DNA of 64,000 nt, taken from the NCBI RefSeq assembly GCF_019397265.1, contig NZ_CP068985.1:4692501-4756500 (forward strand), in the 5' to 3' direction. Source of the DNA: Nonomuraea coxensis DSM 45129. Its GTDB lineage: Bacteria > Actinomycetota > Actinomycetes > Streptosporangiales > Streptosporangiaceae. Numbering within the stretch: the stretch's first letter is position 1; each line of letters begins with the position of its first letter. Shown piece by piece: positions 1,562-25,597 of this stretch. The translations under genes were made by a program, and so were the position numbers. The notes beneath the pieces are model-generated. The model had not been told where the DNA came from and did no database searches. It saw only the letters and a program-made list of their open reading frames with translations.

Positions 1562-1786
1562 GTGACTCGTCAGGTGCGCACCTCCCCCGGTGCGGCGAGC
1601 CAGTTCAAGGGGTTCACCTCGCACCACCTGCGTGCCGGGTTCGGTCACCTGCGTTCCCGGTTGCCCACGCTGTGGTCGCGGTCCTGCTTCGTGGCCACCG
1701 CCGGCGCCGTGTCCGCAAAGACGGTGCGGCGTCACATCGTCGGGACGCGGTATGAGCGGGCGCCCAAGGCGGGTGGCCGTGCGTAG
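1562..1786 (+). pseudogene. tnpA: IS200-type Y1 transposase TnpA, C-terminal remnant
   Basis: 74 residues from a GTG match the C-terminal half of IS200/IS605 TnpA: SQFKGFTSHHLRAGFGHL, then LPTLWSRSCFVATAGAVS and KTVRRHI. The N-terminal half with the HUH metal-binding motif is missing. In the family the helix after the WS-YF-AT segment carries the catalytic Tyr (RRYI) and a metal-binding Gln; here the Tyr position is His and the Gln position appears to be Arg, with one inserted residue. The product cannot be active as a transposase. Its end overlaps the start of tnpB, the ancestral arrangement. Confidence 0.8.
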
Positions 1787-2969
1787 GTCTTACAAGTTCC
1801 TCATGCGTCCGACCGCGCACCAGCAGGCGGCGCTCACCGCGTGCCTGGACGACCACCGCGTCCTGTACAACGCGGCGCTTGAGGAGCGGCGCGAGGCGTA
1901 CAGGCGGTCCAGGGTGTCGATCCGGTACGGCGACCAGTCCGCCCAGCTCAAGGAGATCCGCGCCGGCGACCCCGATCGGGCGCGCTGGTCGTTCTCCTCC
2001 CAGCAGGCCACCCTGCGCCGCCTGGACAAGGCGTTCGGTGCGTTCTTCGGCCGCGTCAAGGCCGGTCGCACTCCGGGCTTCCCGCGTTTCAAGGGCCGGG
2101 GCTGGTTCGACACGGTTGAGTGGCCCAAGGACGGCGACGGCTGCCGGTGGGACTCCCAGCCCGAGCACCCTTCCGCCACGTTCGTCCGTCTTCAAGGCGT
2201 CGGGCAGGTCCGCGTGCACCGGCACCGCCCGGTGCGGGGCCGGGTGAAGACGATCAGCGTGAAGCGGGAAGGCTCCCGCTGGTACGTCGTCTTGTCGTGC
2301 GACGACGTGCCCGCCGAGATCCTGCCCGCCACGGGTGCGGTCGTCGGCGTGGACATGGGCGTGGCGTCGTTGTTGACCACCTCGGACGGCGAGCAGGTCG
2401 GCAACCCGCGACACCTTGAGGCGTCCGCCGGGAAGCTGGCGGCCGCTCAGCGGGACCTCGCCCGTAACAAGCGCGGGTCCAGACGCCGCCGTAAGGCGGT
2501 CGCCCGCGTCGCGGCCCTGCACGGCAAGGTCCGGCGTCAACGGCTCGACGGCGCGCACAAGGCCGCGAACGCGCTGATCCGCGACTACGACGTGATCGTG
2601 CACGAGGACCTGCGGATCGCGGACATGACCAGGAGCCCAGCCCCGAAACCGGACGGGGAAGGCGGCTACCTGCCCAATCGCGCGGCGGCCAAGGCCGGAT
2701 TGAACAAGAGCATCCTGGACGCGGGTTGGGGGGTGTTCCTGGGCATCCTCGCGCACAAGGCTGAAAGCGCCGGTCGAGAGCTGATCTCCGTGGACCCTCG
2801 CAACACCTCCCGCACGTGCGCCCGGTGCGGGCACCTGGCGAAAGACAACCGCGTCACCCAAGCCGAGTTCGCCTGTAGGGCGTGCGGTCACACCGCGCAC
2901 GCCGACGTCAACGCGGCGATCAACATTCTGAGGGCAGGGCTTGCCCTTCGCGAAGCCGCAGCGGCTTAG
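1752..2969 (+). CDS. tnpB: RNA-guided nuclease TnpB (IS605 family)
   Basis: 405 residues from ATG 1752; a GTG at 1779 (VRRSYKFLMRPT) is an equally likely start and matches the usual TnpB N terminus better. The RuvC-like active site is complete: Asp in VVGVDMGVA, Glu in VIVHEDLRIADM, and Asp in HADVNAAINIL. The zinc ribbon CARCGH...CRACGH lies between the last two. Family knowledge: TnpB is a DNA nuclease guided by an RNA derived from the element's right end and helps retain the element at donor sites. All catalytic residues are present, so nuclease function is plausible even though its TnpA is dead, which would leave a stranded, non-mobile guide-nuclease unit unless transposase is supplied in trans. 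Confidence 0.9.
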   Translation: MSGRPRRVAVRRSYKFLMRPTAHQQAALTACLDDHRVLYNAALEERREAYRRSRVSIRYGDQSAQLKEIRAGDPDRARWSFSSQQATLRRLDKAFGAFFGRVKAGRTPGFPRFKGRGWFDTVEWPKDGDGCRWDSQPEHPSATFVRLQGVGQVRVHRHRPVRGRVKTISVKREGSRWYVVLSCDDVPAEILPATGAVVGVDMGVASLLTTSDGEQVGNPRHLEASAGKLAAAQRDLARNKRGSRRRRKAVARVAALHGKVRRQRLDGAHKAANALIRDYDVIVHEDLRIADMTRSPAPKPDGEGGYLPNRAAAKAGLNKSILDAGWGVFLGILAHKAESAGRELISVDPRNTSRTCARCGHLAKDNRVTQAEFACRACGHTAHADVNAAINILRAGLALREAAAA

Positions 2970-3638: not shown

Positions 3639-4808
3639 CGGGAGTGTTGAGAGCGCTTCGTCGAGGGCGGCGAGCACGGCGTCGTCCAGCATCTCGGCGT
3701 GCCCGCCGACGAGATACCGCTCCACGATCTCGAACACCACCGTGTCACTCTCGGCGACCTTCTCCACGAGCTGGTCCAGCCCCGTCCTGGCCGGCGCGTC
3801 GCTGCGCAGATAGGTGAGGTCGGCGAAGTACGGCAGCACCCACGGCAGCGAGTTGCGCGTGAACGAGTCGCCGATGAGCAGCGTCCGGGGCTGGTAGAGC
3901 GGCGCCTGGTCCGACCGGTGGACGGTGCGGAACGACACGGGCAGGTCGCGATCGTCCTGCCGGACCCGGCGCACGCCGTCGCGGACCAGCCGCCACCGGT
4001 CGATGTCCTCCTCGACGGGGATGCCCAGCAGCCCGCCCAGGTCGCCGTTCCGCGGCGCCTGCCCGGTCCTGACCAGCCGGGTGTCCCGGGACAGGCCCGG
4101 CTGGAGTGCCCGGGCGAGTTCCGCGCCGTAGAGGCCGGCGGAGTGCTCGGTCCAGTGGCTGTCGGTCCGCCAGTACGCGGGCGTGCCTGACTCGCGCTGC
4201 GCCCGCTCCAACCGGTCCCGGAGATCGACGAACCCGGGCAGATCGGCGGCCCGGAGCGCGGCCCAGAACTCCTGCTTGCGCCGGCGGAGGCAGGACTGGC
4301 CAGGGAAGCGTTCCGGCAGCCGGTCAGGATGCACGGTGGTCTTGTCGGGAGCCACGGTGAACAGGAACCGCCTTCCGGACCTCTGTACGATCTCGGCCAG
4401 GCGGCGCACCCGCCATAAGGTCTCGGTGATGGACCAGCGCGGCCGGCACGCCTCGGTCACGTCGTCGCCGAAGTAGAGCCAGCCGTCACGCCCCTCGATC
4501 ACGCGAGGATAGCCCGGGGCCCCCGCCGTGCCGTACGACGGGGCCTCCTTGAACAGCAGCTCCGACAGGGCGGCGTTGGCGCGGACGGCGTGCTGCCGCA
4601 ACGGCAGGTGAGCCGACGCCCACGCCTCCACCTCCGGCACGACCGCCCAGCCGCGCGACAGCGCCGGGAACTCCGGCAGCCTGCGGTTCTCGATCTCCAC
4701 CGCCCGCTCGCCCGCGGCGAACGCCAGCGCGGGACCGCAGAAGAACAGCGCCGCCGCGAGCGCCGCCGATCGGGCCCGGCTCCGTACGAGGGTCATCGGT
4801 GTCCCCAT
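3636..4808 (-). CDS. AlgX/AlgJ-like SGNH acetyltransferase-hydrolase, exported
   Basis: 390 residues. An N-terminal signal/anchor (residues ~8-32, RSAALAAALFFCGPALAFAA) is followed by an AlgX/AlgJ-type SGNH domain. Visible motifs are DGWLYFGDD near residue 110, the DSHWT block carrying Asp and His near residue 215, and LLIGDSFTRNSLP with the Ser nucleophile near residue 310. Family members accept acetyl groups exported by an AlgI-type MBOAT protein and place them on exopolysaccharide or other cell-surface glycans outside the membrane. The gene lies 15 bp after the MBOAT gene on the same strand, which strongly supports a working pair. The glycan is unknown, and no polysaccharide synthase is nearby. 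Confidence 0.85.
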   Translation of the reverse strand: MGTPMTLVRSRARSAALAAALFFCGPALAFAAGERAVEIENRRLPEFPALSRGWAVVPEVEAWASAHLPLRQHAVRANAALSELLFKEAPSYGTAGAPGYPRVIEGRDGWLYFGDDVTEACRPRWSITETLWRVRRLAEIVQRSGRRFLFTVAPDKTTVHPDRLPERFPGQSCLRRRKQEFWAALRAADLPGFVDLRDRLERAQRESGTPAYWRTDSHWTEHSAGLYGAELARALQPGLSRDTRLVRTGQAPRNGDLGGLLGIPVEEDIDRWRLVRDGVRRVRQDDRDLPVSFRTVHRSDQAPLYQPRTLLIGDSFTRNSLPWVLPYFADLTYLRSDAPARTGLDQLVEKVAESDTVVFEIVERYLVGGHAEMLDDAVLAALDEALSTLP

Positions 4809-21855: not shown

Positions 21856-22607
21856 CACCCTCGCTCCTTCAGCTGTGTCACGAGCAGCCGGAAGACCTCG
21901 CCCTGGGCGGCGGGCAGCTCCCGCAGCAGCTCCTCCAGCCACTGGCCGTTGCGGGCGTCCTCAAGGCTCGCGAGCATCACCGACACCATCTCGTCGGGAA
22001 GGTGGTCCGCGAGGTCACGCGCGACCACGGCGACGAGCGGATCACCGGGGTCGGCGTCGGCGAGCTCGTCCAGGCGGGCGATGAGGGCATGCCCTCGCGC
22101 GTACGCCTCAGGCTCGGTGAGGGGCCGCAACAGCTCGGCGAACCCGGCTCCGCCCTCCGGGTCGCTCGTGGTGGCGGCCAGGGTCAGCAGTTCGCGGTCG
22201 AGCTGGGCGAACGCCGAGCTCCCGGTGGGAAGGCCGCGCAGCACCTCCGCCATGTCGGGCGACACCGTGGAGTCGGGATGCAGGTCCGCCTCCGCCAGCA
22301 ACGCCGCCAGCCGGGCCCTTCTGGCGGCGATCGCCGCCTGCTCCCTGGCCAGGTCGGCGTACAGTTCCAGAAGCATCTCGCGCAGTTCCCGGCCCTGGTC
22401 GTCGGCCAGCACGTCGCGGACCTCGTCGAGAGACAGGCCCAGTTCGGCCAGCCGCCGCACGCGGGCGAGCGCCACCGCGTCGCGCAGCCGGTACTCGCGG
22501 TAGCCGTTGGCCAGCCGTTCGGGCTCGGGGAGAAGCCCCAGGTGGTGGTAGTGGCGTACGGTCCGGGTGGACACCCCGACCATCGTCGCGAGCTCGCTGA
22601 TCCTCAT
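21855..22607 (-). CDS. MerR-family transcriptional regulator
   Basis: 250 residues. The N-terminal MerR winged helix (MRISELATMVGVSTRTVRHY, LLPEPERLANGYREYRL) and a coiled dimer helix are followed by an unusually long C-terminal effector domain (~140 residues) with no Cys, so it is not a metal or SoxR-type sensor. These regulators twist promoters with 19-bp spacers. A TTGAC/GTCAA inverted repeat lies 17 bp upstream and is its likely autoregulatory site. It is cotranscribed with the membrane protein at 20995. Confidence 0.88.
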   Translation of the reverse strand: MRISELATMVGVSTRTVRHYHHLGLLPEPERLANGYREYRLRDAVALARVRRLAELGLSLDEVRDVLADDQGRELREMLLELYADLAREQAAIAARRARLAALLAEADLHPDSTVSPDMAEVLRGLPTGSSAFAQLDRELLTLAATTSDPEGGAGFAELLRPLTEPEAYARGHALIARLDELADADPGDPLVAVVARDLADHLPDEMVSVMLASLEDARNGQWLEELLRELPAAQGEVFRLLVTQLKERG

Positions 22608-22623
22608 GCGGTCATTAGAAACG

Positions 22624-22644
22624 TTGACGCTACGTCATGGTCAA
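22624..22644 (-). promoter_or_regulatory. Probable MerR operator
   Basis: The inverted repeat TTGAC ... GTCAA has an 11-nt centre containing GACGTAGCG on the minus strand. It lies just upstream of the MerR gene start and matches the general form of MerR-family promoters in actinomycetes. Confidence 0.5.
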
Positions 22645-22675
22645 GCTCCGTGATCTTCCCGCTTCAGATTGACAT

Positions 22676-22711
22676 GGCTAGTTATTTCAGTCATCTTTGA
22701 AATAACTAGCC
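22676..22711 (+). promoter_or_regulatory. Perfect 14-bp-arm operator palindrome before the GbsR-type gene
   Basis: GGCTAGTTATTTCA (22676-22689) is mirrored exactly by TGAAATAACTAGCC (22698-22711) around an 8-nt centre. A consensus -35 TTGACA lies at 22669-22674, so a repressor bound here would cover the promoter. The regulator gene starts 40 bp downstream, and autoregulation is expected. Confidence 0.7.
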
Positions 22712-22751
22712 AGCACGTACGAAGCAAGCCCTGGAAAAGGAGGTTGCGACC

Positions 22752-23240
22752 ATGAGCACCGAGGAACAGCAGGACCGGCTGCTCCGCTGGGTGGAGCGGG
22801 TGGCCGCCTTCTGCGTCGAGGAGTGGGGGCTGCCGCCCATCACCGGACGCATCCTCGGTTGGCTCATGATCTGCGATCCGGCCGAGCAGTCCGCCGGGCA
22901 GATCGCGGAGGCCATCCAGGCCAGCAGGGCCTCGCTCACCTCGAACATGCGGTTCCTCACGGCCATCGGCCTGGTCAAGAAGGTGAGAAGGCCCGGCGAC
23001 CGCGTCTCCTACTACCGCATCGAGGACGACGCCTGGCAGAAGGTCATCCAGCGCAAGCTCGCGAGCCTGAGCGCGTTCGGCGAGATCGCCGGCGAAGGGC
23101 TCGACATCGCGGGCGGCGAGGGGCGCCGCACCGAACGCATCAAGGCCGCCCACGACTCCCTGACGTGGCTGCAGGACCTCGCGGCCCGTCATCCGCTACC
23201 GAGGTGCGGGCCAGCGCTCCGGCCTTCAGGCCGGGGGTGA
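22752..23240 (+). CDS. GbsR/MarR-type transcriptional regulator, C terminus altered by an insertion element
   Basis: 162 residues. GbsR-type winged helix: WGLPPITGRILGWLMICDPA, QSAGQIAEAIQASRASLTSN and LVKKVRRPGDRVSYYRIEDD. AAAAGGAGG precedes the ATG. The last ~14 residues (LPRCGPALRPSGRG) are encoded by the left end of the TnpB element, so the native C terminus has been replaced, and whatever followed in the original operon, usually a transporter for this family, is gone. The DNA-binding and dimer regions look complete, so it may still bind its operator. Confidence 0.88.
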   Translation: MSTEEQQDRLLRWVERVAAFCVEEWGLPPITGRILGWLMICDPAEQSAGQIAEAIQASRASLTSNMRFLTAIGLVKKVRRPGDRVSYYRIEDDAWQKVIQRKLASLSAFGEIAGEGLDIAGGEGRRTERIKAAHDSLTWLQDLAARHPLPRCGPALRPSGRG

Positions 23241-23291
23241 AGGCCCGCGCGGGAGGGCCGCTGAGGCCCGAGTGTGCCCTGACCCCCAGTA

Positions 23292-23468
23292 TCAGCGGTG
23301 CTCGCCGTGCGCATGTTCAGCGGTCTCCGCGACCGGTACCGGAACGATGGCGGCGATCCTGCGTCCCCGGTTGGTGATGTACGTGATCTGTCCACGTACA
23401 GCGGCGTCGTTGAGGACGTCGGCGAATAGTTTGCGGGCTTCGGCGACGCTCTTCTCTTGCGGCTCCAT
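23292..23468 (-). CDS. Phd/YefM-type antitoxin without a toxin partner
   Basis: 58 residues from ATG 23468 (MEPQEKSVAEARKLFADVLN, then the strand pair QITYITNRGRRIAAIVPV). This is the conserved Phd/YefM N-terminal DNA-binding fold, where residues SVAEARK..FA.VLN and the ITNRGR..A..VP strand are diagnostic. The C-terminal toxin-neutralising tail is only ~15 residues. Phd proteins repress their own promoters and inhibit a Doc, Fic or RelE-type toxin. No toxin gene follows: 50 bp downstream is the element's left end. It is divergent from tnpB over a ~50-bp gap with repeated TGTAC half-sites, so it may now repress tnpB. Confidence 0.8.
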   Translation of the reverse strand: MEPQEKSVAEARKLFADVLNDAAVRGQITYITNRGRRIAAIVPVPVAETAEHAHGEHR

Positions 23469-23477
23469 ACATGTCAG

Positions 23478-23513
23478 TGTACGTGGACGTATCTTTATGT
23501 ACATGGATGTACA
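23478..23513. promoter_or_regulatory. Shared operator region between the antitoxin gene and tnpB
   Basis: TGTACG at 23478 and TGTACA at 23498 and 23508 lie 20 and 10 bp apart, on one face of the helix. The gap between the two divergent starts is only 53 bp, so any protein bound here affects both genes. Phd-family autorepression suggests the antitoxin is the binding protein. Confidence 0.5.
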
Positions 23514-23521
23514 ATTGATGG

Positions 23522-24673
23522 GTGCAACTCCGGTACAATTTCCGCCTCTACCCGTCGCCGGGTCAGCGCGCCGCGCTGGCCAAGGCGTTCGGGTGTGCGC
23601 GGACGGTGTTCAACGACGGGCTGCGCATAAGGCAGGAAGCCCGCGAGAACGGCCTGCCATACGTCTCGGATGGGGACCTGTCCAAGCGGGTCATCACCCA
23701 GGCGAAGCAGACCCCGGAACGCTCCTGGCTCGGCGAGGTCTCCGCTGTCGTACTCCAGCAGGCGCTGGCAGACTTGAACACCGCCTACCGCAACTTCTTC
23801 GCCTCGCTGTCCGGCAAGCGCAAGGGACCGAAGATCGCCGCGCCCCGGTTCCGGTCCCGCAAGGACAATCGGCAGGCGATCCGCTTCACGAAGAACGCCC
23901 GGTTCACGGTCACGGCGGGTGGGAAGCTGCGCCTGCCGAAGATCGGCGACCTCAAGGTGAAGTGGTCACGAGACCTGCCGTCAGAGCCGTCATCAGTGAC
24001 GGTCATCAAGGACGCCTCCGGCCGGTACTTCGCGTCGTTCGTGGTCGGGGCGGGCGGCGAGTCGCTGCCAGAGATCGCTTCGGAGGTTGGGATCGATCTC
24101 GGGCTGACGCACTTCGCGGTCCTGTCGGACGGCCGGAAAATCGACAACCCGCGCTGGCTGCGCCGTGCCGAACGCCGGTTGAAGAAGGCCCAGCAAACCC
24201 TGTCCCGGAAGGCGAAAGGGTCGAACAACCGGAAGAAAGCCGTCGTCAAGGTCGCCAAGGCGCACGCCGAGGTGGCCGACACGCGCCGCGACTGGGCACA
24301 CAAGCTCTCCACGGAACTGGTTCGCGACAACCAAGCGATCTACGTGGAGAACCTTGCCGTGTCCGGCCTCGGCCGTACTCGTCTGGCGAAGTCCGTCCAC
24401 GACGCCGGATGGGCGCAGTTCACGGCGATGCTCGCCTACAAGGCCGCCCGGTATGGGCGGCACTTTGTGAAGGTGGATCGCTGGTTCCCCAGCTCGAAAC
24501 TCTGCTCGGCCTGCGGAGCGCTGCAAGAAAAGATGCCGTTGAACGTCCGGTCGTGGGCCTGCTCGTGCGGGGCGGTCCACGACCGGGACGTGAACGCCGC
24601 CGTGAACATCCTCGCCGCCGGACGGGCGGAGAGGCTAAACGCCTGCGGAGGGACCGTAAGACCCGCCGCCTAG
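23522..24673 (+). CDS. tnpB: RNA-guided nuclease TnpB (second, divergent subtype)
   Basis: 383 residues from GTG 23522. N terminus QLRYNFRLYPSPGQRAALAK is typical. The RuvC residues are complete: Asp in VGIDLGLTHFAV, Glu in AIYVENLAVSGLG, Asp in HDRDVNAAVNILAAG. The zinc ribbon is CSACGALQEK...CSCGAVH. It shares little outside the core with the TnpB at 1752 and belongs to the IS1341-like group that travels without its own tnpA. Family knowledge predicts guide-RNA-dependent DNA cleavage; the guide would come from DNA just past 24767, which is the 5' leader of the methyltransferase gene. Confidence 0.9.
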   Translation: MQLRYNFRLYPSPGQRAALAKAFGCARTVFNDGLRIRQEARENGLPYVSDGDLSKRVITQAKQTPERSWLGEVSAVVLQQALADLNTAYRNFFASLSGKRKGPKIAAPRFRSRKDNRQAIRFTKNARFTVTAGGKLRLPKIGDLKVKWSRDLPSEPSSVTVIKDASGRYFASFVVGAGGESLPEIASEVGIDLGLTHFAVLSDGRKIDNPRWLRRAERRLKKAQQTLSRKAKGSNNRKKAVVKVAKAHAEVADTRRDWAHKLSTELVRDNQAIYVENLAVSGLGRTRLAKSVHDAGWAQFTAMLAYKAARYGRHFVKVDRWFPSSKLCSACGALQEKMPLNVRSWACSCGAVHDRDVNAAVNILAAGRAERLNACGGTVRPAA

Positions 24674-24710
24674 CGGAGGGCAGGACCCGGTGAAACAGGA
24701 AGCCACAGAG

Positions 24711-24757
24711 GTGCCGCACGCGCGGCACAGGCTGAATCCTCAGCCTTCAGGCTGGGG
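24711..24757 (+). ncRNA. Right-end hairpins, probable TnpB guide-RNA scaffold
   Basis: Two stems, GTGCCGC/GCGGCAC (24711-24728) and CCTCAGCC-TTCA-GGCTGGGG (24738-24757), lie between the tnpB stop and the right boundary. Guide-RNA scaffolds in this family are made from this region plus the tnpB 3' end. The RNA limits are inferred. Confidence 0.45.
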
Positions 24758-24784
24758 AGCGCGTCAAGCCGTTGAGGAATCCCC

Positions 24785-25597
24785 ATGCACCGCCGGCAAC
24801 CCAAGCTCGGGCTGATCCAGGAAACGCTGCTGCTCACTCTGCACGCCAGAGCCCTGGACGCGGGGCGGCCCAGCCCGGTCCTCGGCGACACGCACTCCGC
24901 CGACCTGGCCGGCGCCATCGATTACGACTTCGGCAGGCTGAAGGTCAAGCCCAGCCTCGTCCTCACGACGGCGCTGCGCGCCAAGAAGCTCGACGGTGTC
25001 GTCCGCGCCTACGTCGCCGCTCACCCCGGATGCGTGGTGCTCGACCTGGGCTGCGGCCTGGACACCAGGATGCTCCGCTGCGATCCCCCGCCCGGCGTCG
25101 ACTGGTACGACATCGACTTCCCGGAAGTGGTGCGCCTGCGGGCTGAATGTCTGCCCGGCCGTTCCCGCCTGGTAGAAGCCGACCTCACCAGCTCCGAATG
25201 GCTCACCGCCATCCCCGGTGACCGGCCGGCGATGATCGTCGCCGAGGGGCTGCTCCCCTTCATGCCCGGCGACTCCTTCCAGGCGATGAGCCGCGCGCTG
25301 ACCGGCCATTTCCCTTCGGGCGAGCTCGCGCTCAACGGCTACACCCGCTTCGCCGCCTGGGCCATGAAGTATCACCCGGCCATCAAGGCACTCGGCATCA
25401 CGGCCGCCCAGGGCTTCGACGACCCGCGCGAACCAGAGTCCTGGGACGCGGGCCTCGAACTGGTCGAGGAGCAGATCCTCGCCCGCGCACCGGAGGTGGC
25501 CTGGTTCCCTCAACCGCTCCGCGCGCTCACCCGTCTCACCGCCCGCAGCACAGTCCTGTCGCGGCAGGGGGCCCGCGTCCTCCGCTACCGATTCTGA
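24785..25597 (+). CDS. Class I SAM-dependent methyltransferase, TcmP/LCM type
   Basis: 270 residues. It begins with the family's N-terminal helix (LGLIQETLLLTLHARALDAG) and DYDFGRLKVKPSL, then SAM-binding motif I VVLDLGCGLDTRMLRCDPPP and the acidic VDWYDIDFPEVV; LVEADLTSSEWL and MIVAEGLLPFMPG follow. TcmP-like enzymes O-methylate carboxylates or phenols in natural-product pathways, but this copy stands alone. TTGAGGA before the ATG is the ribosome-binding site, immediately next to the TnpB element's right end, so the native promoter has probably been replaced. Confidence 0.85.
   Translation: MHRRQPKLGLIQETLLLTLHARALDAGRPSPVLGDTHSADLAGAIDYDFGRLKVKPSLVLTTALRAKKLDGVVRAYVAAHPGCVVLDLGCGLDTRMLRCDPPPGVDWYDIDFPEVVRLRAECLPGRSRLVEADLTSSEWLTAIPGDRPAMIVAEGLLPFMPGDSFQAMSRALTGHFPSGELALNGYTRFAAWAMKYHPAIKALGITAAQGFDDPREPESWDAGLELVEEQILARAPEVAWFPQPLRALTRLTARSTVLSRQGARVLRYRF

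Follow-up and report, generated by a model that had tools for sequence, protein, structure and literature searches.

The window analyzed here is the whole 64,000-nucleotide stretch of the Nonomuraea coxensis DSM 45129 genome at positions 4,692,501 to 4,756,500 of contig NZ_CP068985.1. It contains an IS200/IS605-type mobile element in which two genes only are recognised, tnpB, coding for a predicted RNA-guided nuclease, and a divergent gene, here called phd, coding for a Phd/YefM-like protein which is a putative repressor of tnpB. Coordinates are collected in Table 1; loci, genomes and contigs are referred to by L, G and C numbers. The presence of a Phd/YefM-like gene inside a TnpB element, divergent from tnpB over 53 bp carrying three phased TGTAC half-sites, had been proposed in a first-pass annotation, and was confirmed by profiles, predicted fold, empty insertion sites in relatives and the position of the start codon. 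The tnpB open reading frame (ORF) is full-length, and its product features the domains expected of TnpB and IS605 OrfB proteins (Pfam OrfB_IS605, Cas12f1-like_TNB and HTH_OrfB_IS605). In a PADLOC search TnpB matches Cas12f-like models, and no match was obtained for the two Phd proteins described below.

The window protein, representative of a type designated PhdA, scores 21.7 bits against the NCBIfam model phd_fam (cut-off 20.8), and is thus a member of the family. Translation starts more likely at ATG 23468 than at the end of the mechanical ORF (23504), because M or V is found at that place in 14 homologues of other records; this start leaves 53 bp (23469-23521) between the phd and tnpB start codons. 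The AlphaFold model of the 58-aa protein, obtained from a 15-row alignment which included other Phd relatives, has a confidence score (pLDDT) of 89.7, lower (66) in the last block of the C-terminal tail. The best Foldseek matches of the model are Phd/YefM-type antitoxins and their kin (2odk, 4zlx, 3hs2; TM scores about 0.6-0.76), in line with the N-terminal fold of Phd, with a best E value of 6.4e-3 and none <0.001; a profile of the same 15 rows matches P1 Phd at about 1e-8. Purifying selection, as judged from codon comparisons, acts on the Phd-like protein, the ratio of nonsynonymous to synonymous changes (omega, dN/dS) being 0.06-0.21 for PhdA (10 pairs from 5 loci, 51 codons), and 0.08-0.75 for a second type, PhdB (7 loci, <0.5 in 19 of 21 pairs).

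The nearest relatives residing in an intact operon (L055, L058, L059, L062, L064, L067) are 87-92 aa long, with a ParE-type gene downstream at -1; the one following L055, when scanned, scored 48.2 bits for ParE_toxin. TnpB-linked PhdA stops about 35 residues earlier (58 vs. 87-92 aa). In Phd-type antitoxins the toxin is bound by the C-terminal part; because this is the part that the TnpB-linked form is without, the DNA-binding half seems to have been kept, and the toxin-neutralising half lost. Among the traits of type II toxin-antitoxin systems, neither an adjacent toxin gene nor the C-terminal neutralising segment was found; conserved operator-like boxes, of the sort that could mediate autorepression through promoter palindromes, were observed.

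TGTAC occurs in the 53-bp spacer at 23478, 23498 and 23508, the half-sites being 20 and 10 bp apart. The second and third combine in the palindrome TGTACATGGATGTACA (O2), and a weaker palindrome, TACGTGGACGTA (23480-23491), is found around the first, within O1. Because -10-like hexamers lie 6 nt and 7 nt from the start codons, both divergent promoters would be leaderless, with the boxes placed over their -10 elements. In 11 aligned spacers, all of 53 bp, GTAC is found at position 11 in 10 rows, at position 31 in 8 and at position 41 in 10; the spacer of L189, a locus with a truncated tnpB, has no GTAC at any aligned position, and the second arm of O1 is weaker in Actinomadura rows. The O2 block (spacer positions 29-47) has a mean pairwise identity of 0.85 in 10 rows, 0.84 with all 11, to be compared with 0.60 for the spacer outside O1 and O2, and with 0.58 and 0.54 for fourfold sites of tnpB and phd, respectively. 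The left arm of O2 lies in neither -10, and GTAC is there in 8 of the 11 rows. An additional operator inside phd (TGTACGTG..CACGTACA, about 23378-23400) was considered and rejected as not conserved, because just 4 of the 14 genes compared (window, L187, L189 and L190) have GTAC in the two positions.

Table 1. Features of the phd-tnpB element and of its borders (window coordinates)
Feature	Coordinates	Strand	Remarks
GCTAC target motif	23195..23199	+	directly left of element
Whole mobile element, IS200/IS605-type without tnpA	23200..24767	.	1568 bp; empty sites in relatives
Left-end (LE) motif CTCCGGCCTTCAGGCCGGGGGTGAAGGCC	23217..23245	+	also precedes many related tnpB genes (<=7 substitutions)
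phd-like gene (PhdA type)	23292..23468	-	58 aa + stop
Predicted phd -10 TACACT	23476..23481	-	7 nt from phd ATG
Operator-like O1 TGTACGTGGACGTA	23478..23491	.	TGTAC half-site + TACGT-GG-ACGTA palindrome
Operator-like O2 TGTACATGGATGTACA	23498..23513	.	perfect 7-bp arms around GG
Predicted tnpB -10 TACAAT	23510..23515	+	overlaps O2; 6 nt before GTG
tnpB	23522..24673	+	383 aa, GTG start; NCBIfam guided_TnpB 344.5 bits
Right-end (RE) motif CAGCCTTCAGGCTGGGGAGCGCGTCAA	24741..24767	+	end GCGCGTCAA common to most copies with RE found
Right flank GCCGTTGAGGAATCCCCATG	24768..24787	+	starts where the right flank of empty sites starts

Recurrence of the pair and contents of the slot

The pair recurs in other genomes, and the possibility that phd is a chance neighbour of tnpB in one copy is excluded. 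Matches to the window protein (E<=1e-4) were found in 42 of 250 genomes of the same family; among the 30 loci listed, TnpB adjoins the strongest seven (L009, L043-L048) and none of the remaining 23 (L049-L071). When five PhdA proteins were used as queries against the GTDB contig collection, 14 PhdA loci were identified, in Microbispora, Nonomuraea, Planomonospora, Sinosporangium, Actinomadura and Microtetraspora, a count not independent of the family one, because some loci are the same contigs. In 14 of 14 phd faces a tnpB sequence, whole or broken. The spacing is 53 bp in ten loci and 52 bp in L198 and L200, the tnpB start being missing in L187 and L188; tnpB is truncated in L187-L189 and runs off the contig end in L193 and L200, and in-frame stops interrupt phd in L194 and L200.

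PhdB elements were monitored in 345 genomes of the order. A PhdB profile gave 28 matches, 24 with TnpB sequences on the divergent side; among these, L212 retains only a 36% C-terminal TnpB piece, and L227 and L228 only short starts at the contig edge. The four matches without divergent TnpB are L216, L220, and L217 and L225, both of which end at the contig edge. In L219 and L221 PhdB is divergent from a TnpB 28-30% identical to that of the window, and a GGTACC box is present; the PhdB module therefore also occurs with another TnpB lineage. On plasmids, no PhdA match and one weak PhdB match (Streptomyces decoyicus) were found. In the TnpB loci examined outside the family of the window the slot held tnpA, part of it or nothing recognised, phd having been sought there by eye only.

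Some phd-tnpB elements devoid of tnpA have spread in multiple copies. L113 and L120, both in G142, are 97.4% identical over 1566 bp and reside at different sites, and the same genome carries the tnpA-bearing L116. Four PhdB left ends in G069 (L217, L225, L227, L228) are 98-99% identical; in each the contig ends at the tnpB start or shortly ahead of it, and they probably represent a multiplied element not resolved by the assembly. The PhdA copies L111, L113 and L120 of G142 vary in the number of in-frame DVL/EVL repeats, perhaps by slippage of a 9-bp unit.

The divergent slot was further analyzed in a survey of TnpB in the 250 family genomes, up to 7 candidates being scored per genome. Of the 125 matches at E<=1e-150, 113 were classed: the slot is filled by near-full tnpA in 25 loci, partial tnpA in 31, PhdA in 7 (L114 on the basis of a 25-residue match), PhdB in 10, PhdB remnants in 7 (weak matches in L087 and L110), and ribbon-helix-helix-like (RHH-like) genes in 3, and shows nothing recognised in 30. 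Twelve matches were left unclassed (7 partial and 4 near-full ones not retrieved, and that of G194, a locus identified as L047 in the antitoxin search); among those not retrieved, the match in G169:C3 has PhdB (L224). Three of the five PhdB proteins scanned are above the Pfam Phd cut-off (38.7, 36 and 32 bits), and the RHH-like L097 protein passes both Pfam HicB and Arc.

In a quick maximum-likelihood tree of 115 TnpB proteins (support from the Shimodaira-Hasegawa-like approximate likelihood ratio test, SH-aLRT, only; L021 on a long branch; L042, L047, L160, L165, L178 and L180 excluded as too short), tnpA, PhdA, PhdB and RHH loci are interleaved. The minimum number of label changes is 6 for PhdA, 9 for PhdB with remnants and 3 for RHH, of which starred branches force 3, 4 and 2, respectively, gain and loss being not distinguishable. 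Such interleaving is as expected if slot contents were swapped by recombination.

The genome hosting the window has 42 TnpB-like stretches. In the close clade a divergent Y1 tnpA is found in L014, L015, L018, L019, L021 and L042 (Pfam Y1_Tnp for the L014 protein), a different Phd protein, of the PhdB type, in L017, a decayed relative of the latter in L016, and nothing recognised in L020. The PhdA type occurs once, the next match having an E value of 0.005. Fourteen TnpB copies of the same genome (L022-L035) are 50-52% identical to that of the window, in alignments running past one in-frame TGA; in the three examined (L022, L023, L028) the TGA is near the C-terminus and similar sequence is found beyond, as would be the case if the end of the gene overlapped the guide-RNA scaffold.

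In the family survey, phased GTAC pairs, defined as two GTAC at a distance of 9-11 bp within the 55 bp upstream of tnpB, occur in 3 of 7 PhdA and 7 of 10 PhdB loci (10 of 17 taken together), and in 0 of 96 other loci (0/25 tnpA, 0/31 partial tnpA, 0/7 PhdB remnants, 0/3 RHH, 0/30 empty slots), in rows which kinship makes non-independent; shuffles of the family-survey sets give up to 2 pairs per set. When the window is added to the 14 GTDB loci, phased pairs are found in 9 of 15, the shuffled mean being 0.13 pairs and the maximum 2 in 500 shuffles. A general 7-bp palindrome score is above shuffles in PhdB loci (6.3 vs. 5.36), weakly so in PhdA loci (5.8 vs. 5.54), and not in RHH (5.33 vs. 5.43) or tnpA loci (5.19 vs. 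5.29). The argument therefore rests on the GTAC-pair statistic, picked after the motif had been seen and not blind.

The repeats differ among slot types. In six PhdB spacers of the L017 kind (L017, L122, L079, L108, L118, L203) GGTACC-like boxes recur every 9 bp and reach the tnpB start. L097, coding for the HicB/Arc-like protein, has GGTCCCATT repeats, an 11-bp inverted repeat (GGTCCCATTCT/AGAATGGGACC) being found around its tnpB -10. The hypothesis that GTAC boxes are an ancestral trait of the nearest toxin-antitoxin antitoxins was discarded: among the 14 promoters listed, CCAACTTGGC-like repeats are found in most of the ParE-linked ones, and L049 is alone in having two GTAC at a distance of 10 bp. 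In L049 (G122:C27, ~4175-4366) a Phd relative of about 51% identity is encoded, and no toxin gene was seen directly downstream of it. It diverges from a gene of the recombination endonuclease VII-like kind (PF02945, 42.1 bits), and TGTACACGAGTGTAC lies between the two; this is perhaps the same trick, played with another nuclease.

Limits and surroundings of the element

Empty sites were searched in 54 genus members with the segment 22700-25650 as query. Flank matches end at query position 500 and resume at 2069. They abut exactly in G207, G240, G253, G212, G272, G264, G275 and G195, and within 1 bp in G217 and G237; the limits of the element are set by the exact junctions. A GCTAC is found just before the left end of most related copies listed, whichever gene fills the slot, the exceptions being L018, L021, L076 and L128. 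Exact empty sites, LE and RE motifs, and GCTAC are all in line with site-specific insertion without target duplication, as in IS200/IS605 elements; the ends would be hairpin-like, as judged from the LE and RE motifs. A Y1 transposase TnpA of its own is absent from the element, which was accordingly filed as a non-autonomous derivative. We take the RE motif to be the end of the omega-RNA scaffold, and the adjacent right flank presumably serves as TnpB guide; no Rfam match at gathering scores was found in the interval 22500-25500.

No toxin gene is present in the 1568-bp element or among flanking genes, as stated in the first-pass annotation. The neighbours are a MarR-like gene, below the Pfam cut-off, and a LCM methyltransferase gene. 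The insertion is at the 3' end of the MarR-like ORF (22752-23240, + strand), the last residues of which are now read from the left end of the element. A second, distant TnpB is encoded in the window at 1590-2969 (+ strand; 28-42% identity in pieces), with a left-end-like stretch at 1459-1500; no facing tnpA- or phd-like gene was noticed.

A putative repressor of tnpB

The reading we favour, with a probability of about 0.72, is that an antitoxin reduced to its DNA-binding half represses both itself and tnpB from the spacer boxes of a tnpA-less IS200/IS605-type element. Having occupied the tnpA slot, the Phd/YefM protein would bind as a dimer to the phased GTAC boxes covering the -10s of both leaderless divergent promoters, and the bound dimer would silence its own gene and tnpB. 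The most likely benefit would be that the RNA-guided nuclease is held low after establishment of the element. TnpB could be expressed on arrival in a repressor-free cell, or upon depletion of the small protein, and the element would be moved by TnpA which relatives with a tnpA gene supply within the same genome. Phd had been regarded in the first-pass annotation as possibly recruited to repress tnpB: recruitment is supported by the recurrent divergent pairing, the boxes over the -10s, the missing C-terminal segment, purifying selection and the presence of PhdB and of a HicB/Arc-like protein in the same slot; DNA binding, dimerisation, repression, its benefit and mobilisation in trans are inferred.

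Several observations weigh against repression of tnpB by the Phd protein. The window protein is below the Pfam gathering score (PF02604, 21 bits vs. 29.8). Short toxin-less Phd proteins are also found away from tnpB (L053, 57 aa; L070, 52 aa), and therefore shortness alone is not specific. GTAC overlaps the -10 hexamers, and part of its conservation may be promoter conservation. The strict GTAC pair is missing in 4 of 7 PhdA loci, all in G142, and in 3 of 10 PhdB loci; a TANNNT -10 is at the expected place in just 3 of 7 PhdA loci (PhdB 10/10, RHH 3/3, tnpA 21/25), and related rows are not independent. The RHH calls L074 and L105, weak matches of the VapB or FitA/Arc kind, do not reach Pfam cut-offs. 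At class level PhdB is found in 4 of 394 genomes, all in the GTDB family of the window. Finally, the TnpB element persists elsewhere without a repressor.

The last point also bears on the addiction-like switch envisaged in the first-pass annotation, according to which loss of a labile antitoxin would release TnpB and damage the cell. Antitoxins are typically protease-sensitive, and the less confident tail of the model (pLDDT 66) would suit a labile protein. Yet within the same clade full-length tnpB resides beside decayed phd (L016, L082, L085, L109, and on weaker matches L087 and L110), without phd (L084), or with near-full tnpA and no phd (25 of 113 loci), and the absence of a repressor is thus tolerated. 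In addition, TnpB is guided to the empty site of the element, and loss of the whole element removes tnpB too. As tnpB persists without phd, and element loss takes tnpB along, addiction fits poorly, and this reading is disfavoured as very unlikely. An orphan or anti-addiction antitoxin, neutralising a toxin encoded elsewhere, with a secondary tnpB pairing, would agree with the membership of the Phd family; we regard it as most improbable, since the C-terminal segment of ParE-linked relatives is missing, no toxin is found in the element, and tnpB is alongside in 14 of 14 loci.

The protein occupies the tnpA slot, and its element should be moved by an outside TnpA; this invites the idea that the protein targets transposition rather than tnpB, for instance by repressing tnpA of other copies in trans, or by acting at the element ends. 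However, the region upstream of tnpB, which houses the tnpA promoter, showed no phased GTAC boxes in any of the 25 near-full or 31 partial tnpA loci (ends not scanned); regulation of tnpA copies in trans was rejected on this ground, and the idea as a whole is unlikely. The protein might also regulate its own gene only, conservation near tnpB reflecting a compact divergent promoter and tnpB being unaffected, or activated. O1 does cover the predicted phd -10, and GTAC partly coincides with -10 hexamers, but O2, the strongest palindrome and the most conserved block, covers the tnpB -10, which repeats likewise span in PhdB loci and in L097 with its HicB/Arc-like protein; pure autoregulation is hence given little credit.

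A broader hypothesis, extending the repression of tnpB by Phd to other slot proteins, is offered tentatively, at somewhat less than even odds. The tnpA slot may be a regulator socket, in one actinomycete family, into which antitoxin-type proteins (two Phd types, a HicB/Arc-like protein, perhaps VapB- or FitA-like ones) were plugged time and again, every one with a dedicated operator at the tnpB promoter. These would be repressor-governed, transposase-less homing-nuclease elements, and a burst of TnpB would occur in a repressor-free recipient, much as in zygotic induction of a prophage.

To our knowledge, the control of TnpB expression is largely open, and an unregulated programmable nuclease should be costly to the host. 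If repression of tnpB by Phd is true, an antitoxin has been exapted to guard a nuclease gene rather than a toxin, through a directly testable switch (three GTAC boxes in 53 bp); a small natural regulator would be on offer for TnpB tools, and the annotation 'orphan antitoxin' next to tnpB could mean 'tnpB repressor'.

Relation to known systems

The element resembles IS200/IS605 elements with divergent tnpA and tnpB genes in TnpB, end motifs, insertion after GCTAC and the presence of a divergent gene in the same slot. It differs because the slot is occupied by an antitoxin-type DNA-binding protein and not by tnpA, same-genome relatives having a Y1 tnpA. TldR proteins are TnpB-derived RNA-guided repressors, nuclease-dead relatives of TnpB; as in the window, transcription control is tied to the TnpB family, but here tnpB is the presumed target, not the repressor. 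Controller proteins of restriction-modification systems are small autoregulators encoded beside a DNA-cutting enzyme, the expression of which they can limit or delay; they have a different fold, and no protective methylase is found here.

Non-autonomous IS605-like elements carrying tnpB only, as described in PMC6452270, similarly lack tnpA and are expected to move in trans; unlike these, the element of the window features a second conserved gene and operator-like boxes. No antitoxin-type (Phd or RHH) partner of TnpB was found in the literature searched, which comprised the titles and abstracts listed and passages of PMC8987985, PMC6006769, PMC6452270 and PMC12737573, nor was an earlier description of a non-autonomous IS605-type element in which an antitoxin was exapted, presumably to regulate the nuclease; the main survey of TnpB diversity was outside that search, and a prior description there is possible.

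Phd/YefM antitoxins (P1 Phd, E. coli YefM, Axe) share with the window protein the fold, the N-terminal DNA-binding half and GTAC-core sites over a -10. In contrast, the window protein has no toxin gene and no C-terminal segment, and its promoter partner is the gene of an RNA-guided nuclease. According to PMC7730913, PMC4803016 and PMC3303803, YefM and Axe bind paired TGTACA-core palindromes 12 bp apart, one of which is over the -10 in E. coli; in the Streptomyces yefM/yoeB promoter the proposed sites are TCGTACGA, over the -10, and TGTACC (PMC3303803). Boxes are spaced by 10 and 20 bp in the window, vs. 12 in YefM and Axe sites.

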